DNA of 64,000 bases from Bacteroidales bacterium (lineage in GTDB: Bacteria; Bacteroidota; Bacteroidia; Bacteroidales; UBA1402), in the NCBI GenBank assembly GCA_021373135.1, contig JAJFTH010000002.1, positions 1 through 64,000 on the forward strand, given 5' to 3'. A model generated the notes under the pieces. That model saw only the letters and a program-made list of their open reading frames with translations, searched no databases and was not told where the DNA came from. The translations under genes and the position numbers were made by a program. How positions within the stretch are numbered: position 1 is the first letter of the stretch; each line of letters opens with the position of its first letter. Positions 49,064 through 64,000 of the stretch are shown in pieces.

Positions 49064-49399
49064 ATGAATAATGGGATAAATAGTAATATATTATCACTTA
49101 TTGATAAAACACCTGCTTCAATCCTTTCCGCTTTAGCTTCACGAGTTAAACAAAGGCGATTGGAGTTGAATTGGACTCAGAAGTTTGTTGCATCAAAAGC
49201 AGGCATGCCTCTTGCAACATATCGCAGGTTTGAGTCCAAAGGGGAAGTTTCGCTTCGCGGATTGGTGATGATTGCCATTGCGCTAGGAGCGGAAGATGAT
49301 CTCTCGACGCTTTTTGCCAGGCAAAACTACCAAAGCATGGATGATTTGGTCAATAAAAAAGCTGAAAGCCAACGCAAAAGAGGAAGTAAAAATGGATAA
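49064..49399 (+). CDS. hipB: HipB-like helix-turn-helix antitoxin
   Basis: This 111-residue protein has a Xre-type helix-turn-helix at about residues 26-80 (RVKQRRLELNWTQKFVASKAGMPLATYRRFE). It precedes the hipA-like gene with an 8-bp overlap (stop TAA inside the hipA start region). HipB proteins neutralise HipA and repress their own promoter. The AGTGCTA repeats around its promoter are the likely binding sites. The N-terminal ~20 residues are an extension not needed for DNA binding. Only context supports the antitoxin role. Confidence 0.85.
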   Translation: MNNGINSNILSLIDKTPASILSALASRVKQRRLELNWTQKFVASKAGMPLATYRRFESKGEVSLRGLVMIAIALGAEDDLSTLFARQNYQSMDDLVNKKAESQRKRGSKNG

Positions 49400-50495
49400 G
49401 ATTGATCTGCTGGAAGTCTATCTCAATGAGCGTAGTGTGGGGCGAATCGCTCTGACTCCGGAGGGCTTGTGTGCGTTTGAATACGACACTGAGTGGATCA
49501 AAAACGGATATTCGATTTCTCCATACTATCTTCCGTTGAAACCGGGTTTGATGATTGCAAAACGAGACCCGTTTCGGGGCAACTTCGGGGTGTTTGACGA
49601 CTCTTTGCCTGATGGTTGGGGGAATCTGCTGTTCGACCGCTTTCTGCAGGAAAAAGGCATCAATCCATCTAAACTAACCATCCTTGAACGCCTTTCGCTA
49701 ATTGGTTCTACCGGACGTGGTGCGTTGGAGTATCGCCCGGATCGTAGCATTGCAACGGCTGATGAATTGCTTGATTTTGATAAACTGGCCGCTGAATCCC
49801 AAAAGCTCCTAACTTCATCTACCGCAACAGATTCATTGGATGAACTATACCGATACGGGGGATCATCGGGCGGTGCACGTCCCAAAGTATTTACGAAGAT
49901 GGATGGACGGGAGTGGCTTGTGAAATTCAAGGCCTCGACTGACCCCGATAATGTGGGGCAGACAGAGTATGATTATTCACTGCTTGCCAAAGCGTGCGGA
50001 ATAAAGATGCAGGAAACACGTCTTTTTAAAGGCAAGTATTTTGGTGTGGAGCGTTTTGATCGTACCGCAACCGGTAAGATCCATACAGTGAGCGCGGCAG
50101 GTTTGCTACACGCGGATTATCGGATTCCGAGCCTTGACTATTCCCTGCTGCTAAAATTGACGTTGCAATTGACCAAAGACATGGAGCAAGTTACCGACAT
50201 GTTCCGCTTGATGGTTTTCAACGCGGTGATATCCAACCGCGACGACCACGCCAAGAATTTCTCGTTTCAATACAGCCACGGACGTTGGCACTTATCACCT
50301 GCTTACGACCTGCTACCAAGCAACGGATTTAACGGCTACCACACTACAACCATCAATGGCAAAGGCGAACCAACCCGTACCGATATTCTTTCCCTGGCTG
50401 CTGAGGTAGGATTGCAAAAAAAACGTGCCGAAAGCATTTTGGAGGAGATTATCACAAAAAGTACGCCTCTCCTGTCCAAAAAAACACAAAAGTAG
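49392..50495 (+). CDS. hipA: HipA-family serine/threonine kinase toxin
   Basis: This 367-residue protein is a HipA-family kinase. ATG 49392 (MDKIDLLEVYLNERSVGRIAL) is chosen because the frame further upstream lies inside hipB. The N-terminal couple-HipA domain contains FGVFDDSLPDGWGNLLFDR. The GGSSGGARPKVF loop is the phosphate-binding/autophosphorylation region. NRDDHAKNFSF is the catalytic loop, followed by LSPAYDLLPS. HipA kinases arrest growth by phosphorylating targets such as glutamyl-tRNA synthetase. It ends about 100 bp before the leader-distal end of the CRISPR array, so the pair sits at the edge of the defence region. All key residues are present. Confidence 0.9.
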   Translation: MDKIDLLEVYLNERSVGRIALTPEGLCAFEYDTEWIKNGYSISPYYLPLKPGLMIAKRDPFRGNFGVFDDSLPDGWGNLLFDRFLQEKGINPSKLTILERLSLIGSTGRGALEYRPDRSIATADELLDFDKLAAESQKLLTSSTATDSLDELYRYGGSSGGARPKVFTKMDGREWLVKFKASTDPDNVGQTEYDYSLLAKACGIKMQETRLFKGKYFGVERFDRTATGKIHTVSAAGLLHADYRIPSLDYSLLLKLTLQLTKDMEQVTDMFRLMVFNAVISNRDDHAKNFSFQYSHGRWHLSPAYDLLPSNGFNGYHTTTINGKGEPTRTDILSLAAEVGLQKKRAESILEEIITKSTPLLSKKTQK

Positions 50496-50593: not shown

Positions 50594-53500
50594 ATTTCAA
50601 TTCCACATTGGTCTGATTAAAAGTCCGGAGAAAACTATTGATGTATGTCGGCGTTTGATGTTTCAATTCCACATTGGTCTGATTAAAAGATTGATTTTTC
50701 ACAATTAAGTGAGCCCTAATACTACGTTTCAATTCCACATTGGTCTGATTAAAAGCAAAGGAACCCTTCAAACAAAAAGGAAGTAACAGAAGTTTCAATT
50801 CCACATTGGTCTGATTAAAAGTGTATATACCTGACGGAACATCAATGGAACTCAGTAGTTTCAATTCCACATTGGTCTGATTAAAAGTGGGCTAAAGATA
50901 ACGAAGAGTTTATTAAGACCCCGTTTCAATTCCACATTGGTCTGATTAAAAGACAATGGAAACAACAGAATTAGTACAGCAGGAAACGAGTTTCAATTCC
51001 ACATTGGTCTGATTAAAAGGCCTGTACTTCCGGTTACATTACCAAGATTATCCCGTTTCAATTCCACATTGGTCTGATTAAAAGTTTTCAAGAGAGATAA
51101 ATCAGACCGTCAACAACTATGTTTCAATTCCACATTGGTCTGATTAAAAGTCCTTTCAGGATATCGGTTTCGTTGATGTACATAGGTTTCAATTCCACAT
51201 TGGTCTGATTAAAAGATTGATTTTTCACTGTTATACCATTTCTGTGTTATCGTTTCAATTCCACATTGGTCTGATTAAAAGGGTGACTTTTATCGTGTAG
51301 CTTTCGGCCACCTTCGTTTCAATTCCACATTGGTCTGATTAAAAGCTCGAAACGAATCTGCATAAAACGAATCCCAATCTTTGTTTCAATTCCACATTGG
51401 TCTGATTAAAAGGCTGCTATGGCTTCTTCAAAAACACGATAACCAGAGTTTCAATTCCACATTGGTCTGATTAAAAGAAAGCGCGTGGAATATATGGGTA
51501 TTGGTCGAACTGGGTTTCAATTCCACATTGGTCTGATTAAAAGCACCAATCTACAAAATGAGCTTTTAAATTATGTTGTTTCAATTCCACATTGGTCTGA
51601 TTAAAAGATCTGAGACATCATATAGCAGTTTGCTCAATTCCGAGTTTCAATTCCACATTGGTCTGATTAAAAGAGAGCGGAACGCCTATTGATAAAGCGA
51701 ATCATCTTCGTTTCAATTCCACATTGGTCTGATTAAAAGGCATGTAAGAAATTACCTATTGACACATTCTTCCAGGTTTCAATTCCACATTGGTCTGATT
51801 AAAAGGCATAGGCAACAACGAAAGGCAGCGTGTTGAGCAAGTTTCAATTCCACATTGGTCTGATTAAAAGCGCCCTAACCAGGCTTTGTAAAGGTTACTT
51901 TATTAGTTTCAATTCCACATTGGTCTGATTAAAAGGTTCAGATCCTGCGAACACAATACGGCTAACGATGTTTCAATTCCACATTGGTCTGATTAAAAGA
52001 CAAAATAAAACCTCCCGCAAGAAAAGTATCTAAGTTTCAATTCCACATTGGTCTGATTAAAAGAAAGCAGAAGGATATGGAACGTTCCTGGAAGGAAAGT
52101 TTCAATTCCACATTGGTCTGATTAAAAGTTTTTCAAATTGTTTTAGATAGTCTTTAAATTCTTGTTTCAATTCCACATTGGTCTGATTAAAAGGGAAATG
52201 GATTGCAGATGTAACTTCGGATTATACGTTTCAATTCCACATTGGTCTGATTAAAAGTGAGTAAGGAATTTGTACATGCCATTTCCATGTTGCTGTTTCA
52301 ATTCCACATTGGTCTGATTAAAAGATCTTTGGATCGTAACGCTGCCGTTGCTTCTGAAAAGTTTCAATTCCACATTGGTCTGATTAAAAGTCAGCAATTC
52401 CACATTCACACCGTTTTCCTGATTCTCGTTTCAATTCCACATTGGTCTGATTAAAAGATATTTGTTTTCCTTAATATAGTCCGCGATAATCTGTTTCAAT
52501 TCCACATTGGTCTGATTAAAAGGTTACAAACTTTCGGTCAATCACGAAAAGCTCATCTGTTTCAATTCCACATTGGTCTGATTAAAAGCAATCAGGTTGA
52601 CAACTCTTGTGAAATCTTACTGTAGTTTCAATTCCACATTGGTCTGATTAAAAGAATGCTGCTGCCAATCGGAAAATGTTTTTCATTGTCCGTTTCAATT
52701 CCACATTGGTCTGATTAAAAGCCACTCAGGTCAAAACGGATGCTACCATTTATCAGAGTTTCAATTCCACATTGGTCTGATTAAAAGAGGTTTATGCATT
52801 CTATCATATAGAGTCTTTTCCTGTTTCAATTCCACATTGGTCTGATTAAAAGTGTCACCTATGACCTCACGGAGGACCTTATGAGCCGTTTCAATTCCAC
52901 ATTGGTCTGATTAAAAGACAGTTCCTGACTGCCAATTTCAAAAACATTTCAGCGTTTCAATTCCACATTGGTCTGATTAAAAGATTAAAGAACTGAAAGG
53001 TAAATTTACACATTTCGAAGTTTCAATTCCACATTGGTCTGATTAAAAGCTCTGACGGCTCTACTCAATCAAATATGAGCACTGTAGTTTCAATTCCACA
53101 TTGGTCTGATTAAAAGATATTGTATCAATAGATGTTGTTACACTTCATAGGTTTCAATTCCACATTGGTCTGATTAAAAGGCGCGAAGAACATCCGAAGC
53201 GTACTATTTTATTTTGTTTCAATTCCACATTGGTCTGATTAAAAGTCCATTAGCCGCTCAATAGGCGTTATACGACCTACGTTTCAATTCCACATTGGTC
53301 TGATTAAAAGTCAGAAACATATTGAGCTTTTCTTGTGCAACTTTAAGTTTCAATTCCACATTGGTCTGATTAAAAGGAAACTGAAACCAAACTCGATCTG
53401 ACTTATTTTAAAGTTTCAATTCCACATTGGTCTGATTAAAAGATGGCCATCGAACATATCGTAAATTGATTTTCTATCGTTTCAATTCCACATTGGTCTG

Positions 53501-56500
53501 ATTAAAAGAACACCATATTTATCAAAAACAGCTTTAATAATTGGTTTCAATTCCACATTGGTCTGATTAAAAGTAATGACATAATTTCAGAAATAGGCTT
53601 ATATGCCATGTTTCAATTCCACATTGGTCTGATTAAAAGAAAGACGCGGACTCTCCCCATTGCCCCGAATTGACAGGTTTCAATTCCACATTGGTCTGAT
53701 TAAAAGGGCATCGACTTGGAGACTTTAGAGGGTATGATCCTGGTTTCAATTCCACATTGGTCTGATTAAAAGTTCTGGGCTGCAGCCCAGGTTAAGGGTG
53801 CTAATTAGTTTCAATTCCACATTGGTCTGATTAAAAGCCAATTGATGGATTCAAGTCTTCAACTTTTACCCTGTTTCAATTCCACATTGGTCTGATTAAA
53901 AGCAAGTCTGCTTACCGGTTTCCCGTTTTCATCCAGGTTTCAATTCCACATTGGTCTGATTAAAAGACTTTGCCATGTTCACATTCCCTATCCGGGTAAG
54001 ATCGTTTCAATTCCACATTGGTCTGATTAAAAGAACGAAATGGAATAAAGCAGATGATTGTTTACCCGAGTTTCAATTCCACATTGGTCTGATTAAAAGC
54101 AAATCCAACCATCACTTATTCGCAGATAACATCTTGTTTCAATTCCACATTGGTCTGATTAAAAGATATTGACGGGATAGAGGCGAGTGAAACTAAACCT
54201 ATGTTTCAATTCCACATTGGTCTGATTAAAAGGGTATTGACCGTCTGGTCCAACTTCTTTTTCTCTTCGTTTCAATTCCACATTGGTCTGATTAAAAGCC
54301 TTATCGGAACGTATGACGCTTCAGGAAATTTCAGTTTCAATTCCACATTGGTCTGATTAAAAGCCACTAAAGGCACATCCCAGACATCCACATACCGGTT
54401 TCAATTCCACATTGGTCTGATTAAAAGAACCGTTCCCGCATTATCCGACTTCGCGGAACAGAGTTTCAATTCCACATTGGTCTGATTAAAAGTAAATGAG
54501 AATTTAAACGCTAAAATAACCATCATAGGTTTCAATTCCACATTGGTCTGATTAAAAGATTGCTTCTCTCTCATAGATCATCTCCGCGTCCTCTGTTTCA
54601 ATTCCACATTGGTCTGATTAAAAGTAATGGGAAAAGAGTCTTTATTCAAAGGGAAATAGGTTTCAATTCCACATTGGTCTGATTAAAAGATGCCTACGCA
54701 TCAAATCCGAGTTGGTATGAAGAGTTTCAATTCCACATTGGTCTGATTAAAAGTTACATAGAATCCTAAAGCAATATCTGTATCTGCGTTTCAATTCCAC
54801 ATTGGTCTGATTAAAAGTGTGTCAGCCTCAATTAAGGATAATATTACATTTGTTTCAATTCCACATTGGTCTGATTAAAAGTTTGCTCTTACGTCCCGAA
54901 ATACCACTCTTTCGGTGTTTCAATTCCACATTGGTCTGATTAAAAGGAAAAGGAGGGTAAGTCTTTGACGGACGATAAGCGTTTCAATTCCACATTGGTC
55001 TGATTAAAAGTCATCCCGGTAGACACGATATTTTACATAATAGCAGTTTCAATTCCACATTGGTCTGATTAAAAGGGGCGGTACTATTTTCCCGGGCAAG
55101 TGTTTTTTTAGTTTCAATTCCACATTGGTCTGATTAAAAGAACCTTATATTCTAATGTGTGCAAACTATACGCAGGTTTCAATTCCACATTGGTCTGATT
55201 AAAAGAAAGCTACACGATAAAAGTCACCAACCGTGCCGCGGTTTCAATTCCACATTGGTCTGATTAAAAGAAAATGAATTTTTAAACATTGAAAGAAGCC
55301 GTTATTAGTTTCAATTCCACATTGGTCTGATTAAAAGTATGAGGAAAAAGTTGCACCTCAAAGATCAAACATGTTTCAATTCCACATTGGTCTGATTAAA
55401 AGATTTATGTCTGAATGTCGCCCATCTTCCGCACCGAGGTTTCAATTCCACATTGGTCTGATTAAAAGTAAAAGGCTGCCGAACTTCTTCACCGACACTC
55501 ATACGTTTCAATTCCACATTGGTCTGATTAAAAGGCGGGAAGATACCCTAAAACATTCAGGTTTGACAGCGTTTCAATTCCACATTGGTCTGATTAAAAG
55601 CACTAAACCCAATTAAAAAACCCGGCTTCCTATGACGTTTCAATTCCACATTGGTCTGATTAAAAGAGCGGATTTTGCGATAAATGTATCTGGGGATTCA
55701 AGTTTCAATTCCACATTGGTCTGATTAAAAGAATTTAAAGCTCGCCGTAAAATCATTAAACAACGAAGTTTCAATTCCACATTGGTCTGATTAAAAGTCT
55801 ATCTCTTTTTTACCGATATAATCTTCAAGATCTTGTTTCAATTCCACATTGGTCTGATTAAAAGAAGAAATAGAAAAGATTTTCAAATTAGAGATAACAG
55901 GTTTCAATTCCACATTGGTCTGATTAAAAGCTGATAGTTCCATACAAGGACTGAAGCACGTATAGTGTTTCAATTCCACATTGGTCTGATTAAAAGCTTG
56001 TAGATTCTTTGATTATCACCGTCAAAGAGCTGTTTCAATTCCACATTGGTCTGATTAAAAGCTGGCCGGAATAGATATAAAATTCATTCAAGAAATACTG
56101 TTTCAATTCCACATTGGTCTGATTAAAAGGAACAATATTCGTATAACCCCGCACACTGATTCAGTTTCAATTCCACATTGGTCTGATTAAAAGAAAGCTA
56201 CACGATAAAAGTCACCAACCGTGCCGCGGTTTCAATTCCACATTGGTCTGATTAAAAGTCGGCATAGCGTTCTACAGCTGTCCCCAATTCCTGTTTCAAT
56301 TCCACATTGGTCTGATTAAAAGATCGGCCTGATCTGAACTAATATGGTTCAATTCTTGTTTCAATTCCACATTGGTCTGATTAAAAGGTTTAGTTTTCAT
56401 CTTGTTCAAGAACATCAATTAGTGTTTCAATACCACATTGGTCTGATTAAAAGACAGGTATTCGTTCTCCATATTCATACTGTCTGTCGTTTCAATTCCA

Positions 56501-57105
56501 CATTGGTCTGATTAAAAGCAGAAAAACTGAATAAGTTGTCGTTAACAATACAAACGTTTCAATTCCACATTGGTCTGATTAAAAGCTGCTAAAAAACGTA
56601 TTTTTCTTCCAAATGTACCTGTTTCAATTCCACATTGGTCTGATTAAAAGTTAGCTATAAATCATCTATTGAAATTAAGTAGCGAGTTTCAATTCCACAT
56701 TGGTCTGATTAAAAGTGCTAACAAACTATAAAGAATAGTGTCTTTTTCATTGTTTCAATTCCACATTGGTCTGATTAAAAGATCGTAGATTATCTACCTA
56801 CGATTCCAAGACAAAGTTTCAATTCCACATTGGTCTGATTAAAAGAATCCGTTTTTCTTTTGTGACGATAAGCTAACCCCGGTTTCAATTCCACATTGGT
56901 CTGATTAAAAGTAGTTTGGAGTAGGCGGCCTGGATATAACTTAACTGGTTTCAATTCCACATTGGTCTGATTAAAAGGTTATAGACTTGTGGGTGTATGT
57001 GAAAATACCGGGTTTCAATTCCACATTGGTCTGATTAAAAGAAAACATACAATTATGGAAACAATCTTAAAAGCCGTTTCAATTCCACATTGGTCTGATT
57101 AAAAG
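50594..57105 (-). CRISPR. CRISPR array, 100 repeats and 99 spacers, transcribed leftward
   Basis: The 30-bp repeat reads GTTTCAAT...GATTAAAAG on the plus strand. On the minus strand it ends in ATTGAAAC, the 3' handle usual for type I-B repeats, so crRNAs are read leftward from the cas side. By hand I count 100 repeats; spacers are 34-38 bp, mostly 34-37. Repeats are identical except the first (50594, A instead of G at its outer edge) and one at 56424 (one T to A). The degenerate repeat lies at the end far from cas genes, as expected for the leader-distal end. One spacer occurs twice. Short reading frames across the array are artefacts of the repeats. Confidence 0.98.
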
Positions 57106-57328
57106 CCGACAAAACAACCAAAGTTCTTGATTGATTTTCAACCTTTTATATTTTGCAAAACTACAAATTTTTTATTGAAAAGTTGTCGATGTACAATGCT
57201 ATAAAAAGCACCGTACATCGACAATATATATTAAAGTGGTGTATTTCAGTATGTCAAAGAACTAACAGCGTACTTATTCTTCCTTTTCTACGCTCAAAAA
57301 AGCTAATTATATATTGTTCGACAATTTC
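57106..57328 (-). promoter_or_regulatory. CRISPR leader with candidate promoter and 12-bp dyad
   Basis: This AT-rich 223-bp stretch lies between the first repeat and the cas2 stop. TAGTTTTG on the minus strand (57156-57163) fits TAnnTTTG and would start transcription about 44 bp before the first repeat. TTGTCGATGTAC (57183-57194) and GTACATCGACAA (57213-57224) are a perfect inverted repeat with an 18-bp spacer. It could be a terminator for the cas genes, a leader binding site for Cas1-Cas2 or an accessory protein, or an operator. Confidence 0.7.
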
Positions 57329-57601
57329 CTAAAGAAAATTATCTATGCTACTGCGCTCTTTACCAATGATTTCCTTTTCTAGCCACTTCTCATTGCGACT
57401 TTTGAAAATGATCAGACTATCTTCGTCTTCTTTCATTATCAATTTTGCTTTTATTTGAAGTTCCTTCAGCTTCACTTCGCTTAATTCACCCTCAAAAACA
57501 GAGTTCTGAATCCAGCTAAGATATTTCCGACAGAGTTTAAGCATCTTTGCTACCCTTTTTTCTCCACAATCGTACACCAAAATAATATACACTACCACCA
57601 C
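57329..57601 (-). CDS. cas2: CRISPR adaptation protein Cas2
   Basis: This 90-residue protein is the small ferredoxin-fold partner of Cas1. The first beta strand with its conserved aspartate reads VVYIILVYDCGEKRVAKM, and RKYLSWIQNSVFEGEL is the helix-loop that follows in I-B Cas2. It forms the Cas1-Cas2 integrase that inserts new spacers at the leader end. It overlaps cas1 by 10 bp, so it is translationally coupled. The leader follows its stop codon directly. Confidence 0.93.
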   Translation of the reverse strand: MVVVYIILVYDCGEKRVAKMLKLCRKYLSWIQNSVFEGELSEVKLKELQIKAKLIMKEDEDSLIIFKSRNEKWLEKEIIGKERSSIDNFL

Positions 57602-58608
57602 ATTTTAAAAGGTTTATACTCTTCCATGCCTAACAAATGTTTGCTCAGTTTATAACACTCAAGTTTTATCAGATGTTTATAGCTCACACTACGATTTAAG
57701 GTGCGGTGTTGAATGGTTTCGTTCAAACGTTCTTCAAAAGCTTTGACGAAAATCTTTTTACCGGTTTCATTCAACAAACATCGGTTCAATTTTTTGTCGA
57801 AATGCTTTTCTTGTATTTCTTTCTTATTCAACACCTTAAAAATAACGCGATCCACCAATAACGGTTTGAAGATTTCAGAGATATCCAAAGAAAGCGAATA
57901 TCGACGTTCTCCGGGAGTGTGAAGATAGCTGATGGTCGGATTCAGTTGCGTTTGATGGATTGCTCGCAGACATTGGCTATAGCACATCATATTGCCGAAC
58001 GAAATCAAGGCATTCACTTCATTTTCGGGCGGTTGCTTGGTCCGGTTGCCCATTTCAAAGTCATTCAAAATTAGATTAAAGGCATCATAATAAGCCATCC
58101 GAATGTTTCCTTCCAACCCCATCAGTTCGTCAACAGCCGATACATTCGGAATCCTGGCTGCATAGTCTTCGATCAATTTGATGATTGGCTCCATGTCACG
58201 CCCACGACTGTTGTAGTATTTCAGGTTCTTCACCATATTGAAAGCGGCACCTTCAATAAACTTCCGAGCAATGATTACACGTTTTTTCTTATCCTGATAA
58301 TAGGCGGTTTGAGCCAAAATCATCCGACCGGAAAGCAAGAAATCCTTGGGCATAAAGGATCCGGTATAGTTCTCATAATAATCGAAAAAATGTACAGCAA
58401 TGTCATTTTGTCCCAAGAAATTGTACAAGGAACTTTTTGCAGTCAGCGAACCAAAAATATACAAATCACTGATCGTCTCAACCGGCAAATAGCGAGCCTG
58501 ACCTTCGCGTTCGATACCGTTTTCATCCTCTTCAACAGGCGTAAACTTTAAGGTATTATCCTTTCGTTCAAGATGTCCGGGGTTAAACAAATAGTAGGTT
58601 TTTTTCAT
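57592..58608 (-). CDS. cas1: CRISPR-associated integrase Cas1 (I-B type)
   Basis: This 338-residue protein is a Cas1 integrase. The catalytic glutamate lies in MGLEGNIRMAYYDAFN and the histidine in SYLHTPGERRYSLSLDISEIF, with the aspartate following. The opening YYLFNPGHLERKDNTL is the I-B form. It integrates spacers with Cas2. It overlaps cas4 by 4 bp and cas2 by 10 bp. No truncation is seen. Confidence 0.95.
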   Translation of the reverse strand: MKKTYYLFNPGHLERKDNTLKFTPVEEDENGIEREGQARYLPVETISDLYIFGSLTAKSSLYNFLGQNDIAVHFFDYYENYTGSFMPKDFLLSGRMILAQTAYYQDKKKRVIIARKFIEGAAFNMVKNLKYYNSRGRDMEPIIKLIEDYAARIPNVSAVDELMGLEGNIRMAYYDAFNLILNDFEMGNRTKQPPENEVNALISFGNMMCYSQCLRAIHQTQLNPTISYLHTPGERRYSLSLDISEIFKPLLVDRVIFKVLNKKEIQEKHFDKKLNRCLLNETGKKIFVKAFEERLNETIQHRTLNRSVSYKHLIKLECYKLSKHLLGMEEYKPFKMWW

Positions 58609-59117
58609 AGTTCAACTTCACCTGAATAACAAAAATCATAATAGCTGCAATTTTTACAGATTCTGGAATGAATCGTAGCCGGGCATTCATCACTTTCAAC
58701 AATTCGCCGGATATCATCCTCAATGACATTCAACTGCTTCCGGTCTTCATCCGATAATAAAACCTTGTTTGTCTGCCGCAACGCAGGGTATTCCAACAAA
58801 CCAGTAACGCCCTCAATGCCATTCCGTTCCAATACAAATATATAATACTTTACCTGCCATTCGTGCGCTTCTTCAATTTTATCAGATTTCTTAATTTCAT
58901 GAATTATCTTGTTGCGGGCATCGTAAAAGTCAATCTTGATGCCGTCAATCTCCATTTCCTCATAACGCTCAGGACGCTGTGGATAAGATGCCTCATGAAG
59001 CAATTTACCTTCAAAAACCAGGTCGGAAGTGTGCTCCATTGCAATTCCATTTGCAAACAGCCAAAGTTTTCGCTTGCAAACAAAATAGTAATTGAAATGA
59101 GTTCCGGTAATGTTCAT
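58605..59117 (-). CDS. cas4: Cas4 iron-sulfur exonuclease
   Basis: This 170-residue RecB-like nuclease trims new spacer precursors and helps select those with a proper PAM. The four cluster cysteines are C14 (YFVCKRKLW) and C154, C157 and C163 (RICKNCSYYDFCYSG). The nuclease site has GIKIDFYD and IIHEIKKSDK (acidic and E-x-K residues). It begins the cas4-cas1-cas2 block and overlaps cas1 by 4 bp. A 27-bp gap separates it from the chimeric remnant upstream, which separates it from cas3. Confidence 0.93.
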   Translation of the reverse strand: MNITGTHFNYYFVCKRKLWLFANGIAMEHTSDLVFEGKLLHEASYPQRPERYEEMEIDGIKIDFYDARNKIIHEIKKSDKIEEAHEWQVKYYIFVLERNGIEGVTGLLEYPALRQTNKVLLSDEDRKQLNVIEDDIRRIVESDECPATIHSRICKNCSYYDFCYSGEVEL

Positions 59118-59144: not shown

Positions 59145-59549
59145 TTATAAGTCCATCTGTTTATATCTTTTGATTATTTCCCGATTTTCTGTGACCTTAT
59201 CTGTGACCTCACCAGTGACCTTTTCAGTGACCTCACCAGTCAAAGGAACACTAACCCGAAAAATATCATCTTCCAGAAAAACAATTTTTTCGCTTCTGGA
59301 ATATGCTTTTGAATATTTATAGACATTTCGCAGACCGGTTCCAAATTCTTCCGAACGCCCCATCTGAGTAAAGATCTGTGCCAGGCAAGGATTCTTCGGA
59401 AAAGGTTGAAAGGTGTCCGGGTACAATTGATCGTACACATGTGGCTTATTGGCATTACTTGTTTCAACCTTATTATTGTAAATGACAAATATTTCAGGAG
59501 GAACGCCTTCCTTTTCCGCAATTTTTAATATCTCGCTCTGTAAAATCAT
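59145..59549 (-). pseudogene. chimeric remnant: AbiEii N-terminus joined to AlbA_2-protein C-terminus
   Basis: This 134-codon frame starts at ATG 59549, overlapping the stop of the AbiEi-like gene as TGATG, the normal abiEi-abiEii junction. Its first ~19 residues (MILQSEILKIAEKEGVPPE) look like the start of an AbiEii nucleotidyltransferase. From about residue 20 (position ~59492) the sequence changes to the C-terminal half of an AlbA_2/Schlafen ATP-binding protein: VIYNNKVETSN, PFPKNPCLAQIF and GRSEEFGTGLRNVYKY. The nucleotidyltransferase GGT and DxD motifs are lost. The end holds 12-bp tandem units encoding EVTEKVTGEVTDKVTE. The simplest reading is an in-frame deletion that joined two genes. 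It may still be translated. Confidence 0.75.
59185..59244 (-). repeat. 12-bp tandem repeat in the chimeric remnant
   Basis: About four and a half 12-bp units with core GTGACC (plus strand) encode alternating EVT/KVT tetrapeptides. Length can change by slippage without frameshift. Confidence 0.8.
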
Positions 59550-60403
59550 CAATACATTTTTTTGATTATTTCCAACAACTTCTCTCTGGGAATATTGACC
59601 CTGATTTTCCATTTACTAATAAACTCTCCGGTGTCTTCTCCCATCGGGTCTAACAGCGTGTAGCGATTATTTACCATTTTCTGGACATCTGTTTGAAAAA
59701 CCCTGAAAGTATTCAATTCAAACAGTTCAGACAAAAAAGCTAACCGCTTCAATACTGAAATATTATTCATTTGCTTTCCATAAGCCAACAACTTGGTGCT
59801 ACTGATTTTCGCCTCATAAAATGCCCTGATCAGCTCTTCGTATCCTCCGGAATATTGCGGCAAATCAAAACAATCCAGTAAAGTCTTTTCCACATCCGTC
59901 ACCCGAAAACGCTCATTACCAAAGCCCATCTGCATGATGCCGCAGACTTTCTCAGTCTTCACCTTGACAAACTTATAGCGAACATTAAATACTTTTTTGT
60001 CCTTCTTTTGTAAACCCGATTGTGAGAAGACAACATTCGGAATCTGCTCCGTCAGATGATGAAGGTTTAACGCCGACCAGTAAGCGATGGCACTATCTTT
60101 ATGCAAAGCATTGGCGATTACGTAAGGGTTTCTGAAATTTCTAATACAGTAAAGGCCCTTTTCTATTCGCGAAAGCTGTTCATTGCGTATCAGTTTCTTT
60201 AAGACCGGCTTCAAATCATCGTATTTCTTCCCTGTTAAAGGCACGAGAGAATCTATATCAATAACGGTCATCTCGTTATCGACAAGAATATTCATTATTC
60301 TGGAATCTTCACTTTGCAAATTTGCTTTATGTGATAGTTTTTCGAATACAAGAATATTCATTATTCTGGAATCTTCACTGGTGGAAATGTTATTAAAAGA
60401 CAT
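59549..60403 (-). CDS. AbiEi-type antitoxin/transcriptional regulator without an intact toxin
   Basis: This protein (up to 284 residues) is of the AbiEi antitoxin type. A winged helix (VPLTGKKYDDLKPVLKKLIRNEQLSRIEKGLYCI) is followed by NPYVIANALHKDSAIAYWSALNLHHLTEQ and VTDVEKTLLDCFDLPQYSGG. The start is uncertain: ATG 60403 gives two copies of SEDSRIMNILV in the N-terminus, whereas the ATG inside the second copy (near 60298) would leave the 32-bp DNA repeats as a leader. A TATATTTG promoter lies at 60440-60447. The toxin that should follow is reduced to the remnant at 59145-59549, so this is probably an orphan antitoxin. Confidence 0.8.
   Translation of the reverse strand: MSFNNISTSEDSRIMNILVFEKLSHKANLQSEDSRIMNILVDNEMTVIDIDSLVPLTGKKYDDLKPVLKKLIRNEQLSRIEKGLYCIRNFRNPYVIANALHKDSAIAYWSALNLHHLTEQIPNVVFSQSGLQKKDKKVFNVRYKFVKVKTEKVCGIMQMGFGNERFRVTDVEKTLLDCFDLPQYSGGYEELIRAFYEAKISSTKLLAYGKQMNNISVLKRLAFLSELFELNTFRVFQTDVQKMVNNRYTLLDPMGEDTGEFISKWKIRVNIPREKLLEIIKKMY
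60282..60379. repeat. two identical 32-bp direct repeats, each with an AGAATA-N5-TATTCT dyad
   Basis: 60282-60313 and 60348-60379 are identical and 66 bp (22 codons) apart. Each holds AGAATATTCATTATTCT on the plus strand, whose arms AGAATA and TATTCT are complementary. They are either a coding duplication or paired operators for the AbiEi-like regulator. Confidence 0.7.
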
Positions 60404-60476: not shown

Positions 60477-62051
60477 CTATTTTTTCTTTTCCTTATCCAA
60501 ATAATTCAAAAGAGCTTTTCCCTTCGATGTAATCTGATATTTCAAGTTTGGGCTTTGTAGGCTTACACCTTCAGGACGTTTTATCAAATCCATTTCCAAA
60601 AGCGGATCGATAAAGCGTTTGGCGTTAAAAGAATGATTCGTGACGCCTATAGCATCTAACACTTCTTTTCTTTTGCCATTGCTTTTACTTAGGCACTTTA
60701 ATATCAGAGTAGATTCATTTAATATATCTCTGGAAATCAAATTACTAACCATCTTACTAACTAAGCTACTGTCTAAGTCACTGTCCAAGCTACTGTCTAA
60801 GCTACTGTCTAGGCTTGCGCCAACATCTCTTCTCGGTATTAGAATAATAAACTCCTCCCTAACCTTATCATCAATAAGCTGAATTTGCGGACATAGCTCC
60901 AAAGCACGACGGATCCCACTTCCAGCACCGGTATATGGCAATAGTACGTTTGCATTACTGAACAGCAGTTCATTCCGCGGAATAGATACCCCTCTGCGAA
61001 TTTTTTCTTCATTAAGCGACCCAGGCAAATTGCCCGGACTTATTATTTCAACCCGGTTATCAAAAATAAACAGCCGAATGGGAGACTGATGAAAATAATC
61101 CCGGTGTACCAAGGCATTGACCAATAACTCCATCAAAACACCATAAGGAATTTCCAACTCACCAAGCGTATTAAAGCCTGGCTCTACCTGGACATTTTTT
61201 AGATTCCTCTTCAGAAATTGCATCGCCGTTTCATACTGATGACTCAAATTACCCACCATATCAGGATCATCCAGCTTATCACGAAACGAAGAAACAGTCA
61301 AATCATTCCCGAGAAAACTAATACACTTAATCGTTAATACCGGACGAAAATGCTGCGGACGTTTCCCCAAAAGTAACAATGCCGCCAGCGTTAACTCACC
61401 TCCCTCACTGGCAAGATCTATATTCTGCAAAAGCTGCAACAACGATTGTCCCGGCACAATTGCCGATACAATCTGTTCCACCGAAGTCTCCTCCATCATC
61501 TGCATCGTTATGCCTTCAGCCTTACATTTTGCAGCATACCGTTTCAGCAAAAAAAGCTTCACCGTTTTAATGGATAAATCATTTACTGAACTTTCGGGAA
61601 TTAAACAACGATCAGCGTATAGTTGCCCGCAGCTCTGCATCATTTTAGCTAATTCAGAATTGGCAAAAACTTTCCGTTTATCCGAAGCATTCTTAATCCA
61701 GACAATTCCCTTATTATCTTTATAGGGCTTATCCGTACCTTCTTTAACGGTCGCCACCAGCACATTTCCATCTTCAGTTGTGACAGTTTCAGTAATAACA
61801 ACAATGGGCGGCTTGACATTCTCGGATGCAACATTAGCCAACAAATTGGTCGCTGCCTGCAACTCATCAAATGACAATCCGTTTATCTTACCAGTCTTAT
61901 CATTCACGCCGACAATAAGTATACCGCCGTTGGTATTGCTGAAAGCTACAAGCTCTGCCCCGAGTTTGTAGGCATCGGTTATGCGCTCCTTGAACTGGAC
62001 GGTGGAGGATTCGGCGCGGGAGATTATTTGTTTTAATTGGGTGATGAGCAT
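60477..62051 (-). CDS. AlbA_2/Schlafen-type ATP-binding regulator
   Basis: This 524-residue protein starts with a Schlafen AlbA_2 domain (ESSTVQFKERITDAYKLGAELVAFSNTNGGILIVGVND). A GHKL-type ATPase segment follows (LMELLVNALVHRDYF, RVEIISPGNLPG, GAGSGIRRALE). A four-unit 12-bp DNA repeat encodes SLDSSLDSDLDSSL as a hinge. A C-terminal winged helix follows. Such proteins are frequent in mobile and defence regions and are thought to be nucleic-acid or ATP sensors; no exact function is known. It stands between cas3 and cas4 on the same strand. Its motifs differ from those of the remnant at 59145-59549, so the two are paralogues, not one split gene. Confidence 0.85.
   Translation of the reverse strand: MLITQLKQIISRAESSTVQFKERITDAYKLGAELVAFSNTNGGILIVGVNDKTGKINGLSFDELQAATNLLANVASENVKPPIVVITETVTTEDGNVLVATVKEGTDKPYKDNKGIVWIKNASDKRKVFANSELAKMMQSCGQLYADRCLIPESSVNDLSIKTVKLFLLKRYAAKCKAEGITMQMMEETSVEQIVSAIVPGQSLLQLLQNIDLASEGGELTLAALLLLGKRPQHFRPVLTIKCISFLGNDLTVSSFRDKLDDPDMVGNLSHQYETAMQFLKRNLKNVQVEPGFNTLGELEIPYGVLMELLVNALVHRDYFHQSPIRLFIFDNRVEIISPGNLPGSLNEEKIRRGVSIPRNELLFSNANVLLPYTGAGSGIRRALELCPQIQLIDDKVREEFIILIPRRDVGASLDSSLDSSLDSDLDSSLVSKMVSNLISRDILNESTLILKCLSKSNGKRKEVLDAIGVTNHSFNAKRFIDPLLEMDLIKRPEGVSLQSPNLKYQITSKGKALLNYLDKEKKK
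60763..60810 (-). repeat. 12-bp tandem repeat coding the SLDS hinge
   Basis: Four 12-bp units, three identical AAGCTACTGTCT and one variant (plus strand), lie within the AlbA_2 gene. Unit loss or gain would change only the hinge length. Confidence 0.85.
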
Positions 62052-62106: not shown

Positions 62107-64000
62107 TCATAGAAAAATACCCGCTTCAATTTTCTTTGAATCAAATCCATATTCCGGGGAATAACATTGTTTCCAGTTCAGTAAATAGTTAAACCCGTAT
62201 TTGCTTTTATAGGGATCAAGCATCCCTGATATTGCATCAAGTTGTTTTTTATAAACAGAAATGCAAAACTGCGACATGATACTCCCCAATTTCTTCATTT
62301 CAATCTGTTTTATGACATAATCTTCAGATTCACAACGAATAGATCGCTGATAAACATCGAACACTTTACTACCTAAAACAAACTCTTCATCATCGGATAG
62401 CATCTCCATTCGTTTCAAATCGGAGTGGTTTTCAAAATATTTAAGCGGAATCGATACTGGAATAAATAATTGCTGACTGTCATTATTTTCAATTAACTCA
62501 AACTCACTATGTAGTTTTGAAAAATTAAAATCTTTGAAGTATTGATAGTATTGCCAACTTGCGTAAAAGTTACTTTTCATTTTCTTCCGTTTCTCTTCAA
62601 AGACCTTTTCGTACAAGGCATGGAATTGCTTTTTCACCAATATATCTTTATAATCATCGAAAATATCCTTGTCTGTTTGTTGAATTTTATAACGAGTGTC
62701 TGAGCCATAAATCGTACTGGTTTTATCACAATCAAATAAATAAACCGTGCAATTTTCTTTTGAAGCATTTCTATTTATACGTCCAGCTAATTGCTCATCG
62801 CTATCAATTAATGAGCGGTCTTTAAATCCCAAATCCATATCAATATCGGCACCGGCTTCTACAACTTGGGTTGATACAACAATGACCTTTGAAAATTTCG
62901 AGGCTTTGATTGATCCGATTATTTCTTTTCGTCTAAATTCTAATATATCGCCTGAAAGGAGAAGCGCCTCATATTCACTATATTTTTCATCTTGTGTTAT
63001 AATACTGAAAAAGGATGATGCTGTCTTTTTGGTAATAAACTCTATCAGAACTTTTACATGACCATTTGAGTTTAAAGCATATTGTTCTGCTTTCTCAAAC
63101 AGAAAGGCAGATAATTCAAAAAGGTATGCTTCTTTCTCACTATTATCCGGCCTCTTTCGATTCATCAACGAGAAATCAAAAGAAACCCGTCCTGAAAAAT
63201 TTGGATTCGTAAAATAACTTTCTCTGTTAGAAATCAACGAAACAAAAGTTCCTTTTAGCTGATCATGCAAAGCATCAATTTTGGGCAGTGTGGCTGACAT
63301 AATAAGAAAACGAATATTAAAGAGTCGGGCATAGTTTGCTATGAAATAAACAATTTTATCCCAATGTTCAGGATTGTAAGTCTGAATTTCATCAATTATC
63401 ACAATTGAATTACACATGCGATGTAATAAGTAATTACTTTCTTTCTCGTTTCCTTTCAAGACGTCGAAAAAACGAATGTGAGACATAAGAGCAATTGGAT
63501 AATTGACAAAAAGATTATCAACAAACAGCCGCTTCTTATTTCCATAAGAGCCATCGCCACTTTCGTGAAATCCCGCTTTCGAATGAAGTTGAATGATAAA
63601 ATCGTTATTGACATCCAAGGCCTCTTTAATCGAATTGAATGTTTGAGTAATTAAAGTAGTAAATGGGAAAACGTAAAATATTTTGTTTAATGAAGGATCG
63701 ACACTCAATAGTTCTGTTGAGAAAGCTAATGACAGATTTGTTTTTCCTGCCCCTGTCGGTGCTTCAATATAGAAACAATGCTTATTAGTATTATTTCTAA
63801 GATTAAAGACCATTTCAGCAGTGAGCTTTTGCCTAAGGATATTCAAATTTTGGTTGTTCCTTTCAATTAGTTGCTCAAACGGATATAAATGGTAATGCTC
63901 CAGTTTTGAATACAAATCCTTATTGTAAGGCTTAACGGATCTAAACTTTTCTATTAGTCTTTCTTTTTCATCAGGAGTTAAAACACCAAACTCGTCAATT
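62107..64000 (-). CDS. cas3: CRISPR helicase Cas3, N-terminal part outside window (partial)
   Basis: The frame is open to the right edge, so the ~631 visible residues are the C-terminal part of Cas3. The upstream HD nuclease domain must lie beyond 64000. Walker A is EAPTGAGKTNLSLAF, the DEAD-box-like motif II is IVIIDEIQTYNPEHW, motif III is IMSATLPK and motif VI is EQLAGRINRNA. Cas3 unwinds and degrades DNA bound by Cascade in type I interference. A TTG at 63915 is not the true start. On the 5' side cas5, cas7, cas8 and cas6 are expected outside the window. Its 3' end is followed after 55 bp by the AlbA_2 gene rather than cas4. Confidence 0.92.
   Translation of the reverse strand, partial: IDEFGVLTPDEKERLIEKFRSVKPYNKDLYSKLEHYHLYPFEQLIERNNQNLNILRQKLTAEMVFNLRNNTNKHCFYIEAPTGAGKTNLSLAFSTELLSVDPSLNKIFYVFPFTTLITQTFNSIKEALDVNNDFIIQLHSKAGFHESGDGSYGNKKRLFVDNLFVNYPIALMSHIRFFDVLKGNEKESNYLLHRMCNSIVIIDEIQTYNPEHWDKIVYFIANYARLFNIRFLIMSATLPKIDALHDQLKGTFVSLISNRESYFTNPNFSGRVSFDFSLMNRKRPDNSEKEAYLFELSAFLFEKAEQYALNSNGHVKVLIEFITKKTASSFFSIITQDEKYSEYEALLLSGDILEFRRKEIIGSIKASKFSKVIVVSTQVVEAGADIDMDLGFKDRSLIDSDEQLAGRINRNASKENCTVYLFDCDKTSTIYGSDTRYKIQQTDKDIFDDYKDILVKKQFHALYEKVFEEKRKKMKSNFYASWQYYQYFKDFNFSKLHSEFELIENNDSQQLFIPVSIPLKYFENHSDLKRMEMLSDDEEFVLGSKVFDVYQRSIRCESEDYVIKQIEMKKLGSIMSQFCISVYKKQLDAISGMLDPYKSKYGFNYLLNWKQCYSPEYGFDSKKIEAGIFL

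Follow-up and report, generated by a model that had tools for sequence, protein, structure and literature searches.

The window, by which we mean the whole stretch of 64,000 nucleotides analysed, covers part of a minus-strand locus with, in this order, cas6-cas8b-cas7-cas5-cas3 (as seen in locus L001), a SLFN/AlbA_2 ATPase-like gene, abiEi, a toxin remnant, cas4-cas1-cas2, a leader and a CRISPR array. The cas3 gene (62107-64000), whose product has 905 aa in L001, runs into the edge of the window, and cas5, cas7, cas8b and cas6 then follow beyond it. The SLFN/AlbA_2 ATPase-like gene (60477-62051; PF04326, 1.4e-21) lies in the cas3-cas4 interval, and cas4 (58605-59117; PF01930, 3.1e-54), cas1 (57592-58608; subtype I-B, TIGR03641, 467 bits against a cutoff of 304) and cas2 (57329-57601; PF09827, 7.6e-21) are adjacent open reading frames. 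When columns at least 97% conserved were compared with 80, 76 and 76 relatives, Cas1 retained 147 of 147, Cas2 33 of 35 and Cas4 39 of 39, the two Cas2 columns not retained being conservative positions. With open frames and nearly all conserved columns kept, the three genes are intact beside the leader, as the initial annotation had stated. Among the other products, Cas3 matched PADLOC Cas3b (3.8e-233) and exceeded the cutoffs of the NCBIfam helicase and HD models, and Cas8b matched its PADLOC model over residues 1-619 of 624 (6.9e-84) but had no match in the NCBIfam search. For Cas5 and Cas7 the I-B models were the best (Cas5b, 8.4e-25; PADLOC Cas7b, 2.8e-41) but fell below NCBIfam cutoffs, while Cas6 (TIGR01877, 116 bits, cutoff 58.65), Cas2 and Cas4 scored above theirs.

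A repeat scan with mismatches allowed delimited the array at 50594-57105, with 100 repeats of 30 nt and 99 spacers. Read on the plus strand, the repeat is GTTTCAATTCCACATTGGTCTGATTAAAAG, and 98 of the 100 copies are identical; these exact copies lie at 50660-57105 and a scan of the whole genome found none elsewhere. The initial annotation had counted 98 identical repeats with those at 50594 and 56424 each one base off, and the scan showed this count to be exact. The two variants (G1>A and T9>A respectively in the plus-strand reading) differ in kind: the first (50594-50623) is the trailer-terminal repeat, with its last base changed from C to T in the crRNA sense, and the second (56424-56453), the 11th from the leader, is the sole altered internal repeat and is flanked by exact repeats on either side. 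Spacers are of 34 (17), 35 (32), 36 (37), 37 (12) or 38 nt (one), so that the commonest unit of repeat plus spacer is 66 nt (37 of 99). All but one of the 99 spacers are distinct: numbered from the leader, spacer 14 (56194-56228) and spacer 29 (55206-55240) have the same sequence, and spacer 89 (51282-51315), read from the other strand, shares 23 nt with each of them. A 13-nt likeness between spacers 90 and 98 was put down to chance by our own estimate, and a lone repeat folded no better than shuffled sequences. Strong inverted repeats occur within spacers 51 (53773-53807; CTGGGCTGCAGCCCAG) and 5 (56782-56815; ATCGTAG...CTACGAT), whose targets may be structured sites. HipB-HipA-like toxin-antitoxin genes (49064-50495) adjoin the trailer end.

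We placed the leader end at 57105 and the trailer, or old, end at 50594 because the repeat in the sense of transcription, that of the minus strand, is CTTTTAATCAGACCAATGTGGAATTGAAAC. The orientation is based on the repeat end ATTGAAAC, which we take to be the I-B handle, and on relatives that share the order cas1-cas2-leader-array. The leader thus spans the 223 nt between cas2 and the first repeat (57106-57328, minus strand) and was assigned by position; its CGG end is like that of most relatives, G being found at -2 in 64 of 72 rows. We conclude, with a probability of about 0.93, that the locus is a large, well-kept subtype I-B array with intact adaptation genes beside its leader. That the array is an artefact of assembling a repetitive region is highly improbable: the assembly is in 10 contigs and 89% complete, but 98 of 99 spacers are distinct and units of ~66 nt can be put in order by ordinary short reads, and 72 related arrays look alike. 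As in the family at large, Cas4-Cas1-Cas2 would insert each new spacer at the leader side and duplicate the first repeat in every round, and new repeats would be identical because that repeat is the one copied. Cas6 would cleave the minus-strand transcript, and Cas8b-Cas7-Cas5 with Cas3 would degrade matching DNA bearing a CCN-type PAM. Point changes would post-date insertion and either stay single, as at 56424, or mark the oldest end, as at 50594; the change at 56424 fits copying from the leader repeat with a point mutation afterwards.

Relatives that bear a name, as judged from Cas1, belong for the most part to Paludibacter, with other Bacteroidales besides. Of 373 loci carrying a related cas1 we used the best 80 for comparison, and from these 80 loci took 72 further arrays with repeats of 27-32 nt, trimming array ends with at least six mismatches. 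With arrays that run off a contig or locus counted as lower bounds, 11 of the 72 have at least 100 repeats, and the median of complete arrays is 52. Internal repeats were exact in 3531 of 3573 cases, and among arrays of at least 20 repeats, the window's included (n = 50), the median exact fraction was 0.988, with 36 arrays at or above 0.98 and 21 perfect. The exact fraction (0.98) and the size of the window array are therefore ordinary for its relatives. Thirteen of the 42 internal changes fall on the last repeat base, and this final base alternates between C and T both within and between related arrays (for example L060, L070, L015 and L044). We considered that it might derive from the PAM and dropped the idea, since the published I-B PAM (PMC9367070) is free at the position where the arrays are uniform. 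Across L007-L086 cas4-cas1-cas2 is kept, with Cas1 identities of 75-88%, whereas the effector genes vary widely or have no detected homologues, and the adaptation block seems to have been exchanged among effector sets. Genes for 23S_rRNA_IVP four-helix bundles lie between cas4 and cas1 or between cas1 and cas2 in I-B loci related to this one; Pfam confirmed them in L014 (11008-11379) and L018 (9512-9913), and they are similar by eye only in L024 (4810-5121) and L064 (11233-11532); other relatives have unrelated passenger genes among their cas genes.

A secure protospacer was not found when the whole array was searched against phages and plasmids and the spacers alone against 393 genomes, the own genome included. 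Nor was one found with the whole array against three other genomes of the genus, 12 others of the family and 392 others of the order, this last search being swamped by repeat matches. The best phage match of the array had an E value of 0.2, five short array patterns gave no matches in IMG/VR, and the better plasmid matches (E from 8e-5) were split into several pieces at regular intervals, which suggests that they are themselves CRISPR arrays. The best genome match, of spacer 68 in L112 (31/37), was rejected as it lies inside a host gene, presumably for a DUF4249-like protein, and the remaining genome matches were chance-like. Spacer 1 against a 735-kb phage (29/34, without CC at -3/-2) and spacer 55 against crAssphage (27/35) were also rejected, and the spacers of L074, tried as a PAM source, matched only phages of unrelated hosts. 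When the 15 weak candidates were aligned, CC at -3/-2 occurred in two, near chance. Two matches are no more than suggestive of target and PAM: spacer 54 against rtcB of a phage (Dulem virus 39), towards the C-terminus, with 29 of 36 positions identical, including all of the first 18, and preceded by CCT, and a spacer of L065 against a Parabacteroides phage (34/38), with CCG upstream. For Bacteroides fragilis I-B protospacers, PMC9367070 describes, in its own orientation, a tendency to G at positions 2 and 3 on the downstream side, which, by our own reading, corresponds in the crRNA sense to a 5'-CCN PAM.

The initial annotation had also taken the uniformity of the repeats as suggesting a recently active array. 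The large, intact array stands, but uniformity loses its value as a sign of activity: nearly all arrays of this family have almost perfect repeats, which therefore cannot divide active from quiet arrays. The survey of relatives thereby corrects a common inference, in that identical repeats alone do not amount to recent activity. Better signs of adaptation, though indirect, are the intact adaptation proteins, a leader end like that of relatives, a target apparently sampled repeatedly and what is probably an off-target insertion, described below, the copies of which have not diverged. Spacers 14, 29 and 89 would so represent a single 46-bp target sampled three times, unless spacer 14 or 29 is a recombination copy. 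Adaptation was probably functional in the recent past. Three other genomes of the same genus, belonging to other species, have no spacer in common with the array. That the array is instead old and dormant, its identity kept by selection or a low mutation rate and not by late spacer gain, we consider unlikely. Dormancy would accord with repeats that are uniform in the family at any array size, with the failure to find a secure protospacer in phages, plasmids and 393 genomes, and with the B. fragilis I-B arrays, for which PMC9367070 gives low heterogeneity and a spacer turnover below that of other types. It sits poorly with adaptation proteins that retain all examined conserved columns bar the two conservative Cas2 positions, with one target sampled three times, and with a probable off-target insertion whose copies have not diverged.

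Between cas3 and cas4 lies abiEi (59549-60403, minus strand; PADLOC AbiEi, 8.7e-83), an orphan antitoxin-like gene, followed by a remnant (59145-59612, minus strand) that joins AbiEii residues 1-20 (85% identical to L025) to a RecG-C-like tail. These 20 residues are all that remains of the AbiEii toxin gene in the window, and the toxin is lost. Complete AbiEi-AbiEii pairs occur between the effector genes and cas4 in two relatives, directly upstream of cas4 in L031 (8470-9336) and one gene further from it in L025 (7447-8313).

Within abiEi, codons 9-41 consist, in gene direction, of AGTGAAGATTCCAGAATAATGAATATTCTTGT, 34 other bases and the same 32 bases again; in plus-strand coordinates, the copies are at 60282-60313 and 60348-60379 and the insert at 60314-60347. 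The copies are perfect and undiverged and the insert, a candidate off-target spacer, is in frame. Taking the repeat as 30 nt makes the insert 36 nt, and the period of 66 then equals, as 30 + 36, the modal unit of the array. In the genome (2,646,922 bases) this is the sole isolated exact pair of at least 21 nt at offsets 50-80, in a scan that may miss pairs across ~130 stretch borders; other long pairs lie in repeat clusters. With the scan relaxed to 24 matches in 28 and offsets of 40-95, the genome yielded 10 isolated pairs. Perfect identity over 28 bases was seen in three: the abiEi unit, a pair overlapping a tandem repeat (offset 42) and a pair resembling neighbouring tRNA genes (offset 92). 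The abiEi pair was the only one at offset 66, with one imperfect pair (25/28) at 64, and in 1.26 Mb of relatives' loci the same scan gave two pairs, at offsets 44 and 63, both imperfect. At the protein level only, alignment to the closest homologue, in L031, improved from a score of 166 to 188 when the 22 extra codons were left out; other homologues were too diverged at the N-terminus to compare.

We give about even odds to the abiEi unit being an off-target spacer insertion by Cas4-Cas1-Cas2, in which a 36-nt spacer would have been integrated and a 30-nt chromosomal site duplicated, giving a minimal new CRISPR unit inside an antitoxin gene; the same adaptation machinery as serves the array may have made it as a side product. 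Such an insertion explains the anatomy best, because transposase target duplications are far shorter than the abiEi repeat and a tandem duplication would also copy the middle; a simple tandem duplication fails since the insert does not match its own flanks. The alternative that the unit was not CRISPR-made, and arose by local duplication plus insertion through an error of replication or repair or is a pair of palindromic binding sites, has in our estimate somewhat less than an even chance. It would account for a target only weakly like the leader-repeat junction (16 of 35 identities, equalled by 5.2% of window sites by identity and 12.7% by profile), for the imperfect inverted repeat contained in the abiEi repeat, for an insert with no convincing source in phages, plasmids, 393 genomes and one IMG/VR pattern scan, and for the unit being single of its kind. 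Harder to reconcile with it are copies of CRISPR-repeat size around a spacer-sized insert unlike its flanks, at the period of the commonest array unit, as well as the uniqueness of the exact pair genome-wide, the absence of this geometry from the 1.26 Mb of relatives' loci, and a position within a cas locus that makes up 0.74% of the genome. The abiEi repeat is, moreover, not dispersed: three further near matches in the genome compare with 0-6 for shuffled sequences. We had tried it as a dispersed palindrome and rejected this, as the own-genome count was within that of the shuffles, matches in L281 and L282 were in unrelated coding frames and class-level matches were scattered along the query. 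If the insert is indeed a stray spacer, it would be a natural record of the sites at which Cas1-Cas2 inserts by mistake, from a group whose adaptation has seen little biochemical work, and a direct test of target choice would become possible.

Off-target spacer integration is a known, rarely documented event. Nivala and colleagues reportedly described, in 2018, natural off-target integrations in Yersinia pestis and Sulfolobus islandicus. Their E. coli result is cited for off-target (non-canonical) integration in PMC9456107 and PMC11788318 (Nivala et al. 2018). The abiEi unit resembles such integration in that a spacer-sized insert lies, away from any array, between two copies of a chromosomal segment as long as a repeat, and differs from it in the Bacteroidota I-B host, in lying in frame within abiEi, in its little likeness to the leader-repeat junction and in an insert for which no source was found. 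With complete AbiE toxin-antitoxin systems, such as the pairs near cas4 in L031 and L025, the window locus has AbiEi in common, in contrast to its toxin, which is cut after 20 residues. As for Bacteroidales I-B systems such as that of B. fragilis (repeat ATTTCAATTCCATAAGGTACAATTAATAC; PMC9367070), the locus shares the repeat family, the leader-array order, the cas4-cas1-cas2 block adjoining the leader and a match to the same I-B Cas1 model, and is set apart by its 100 repeats and by AlbA_2, abiEi and the toxin remnant as passengers between cas3 and cas4.
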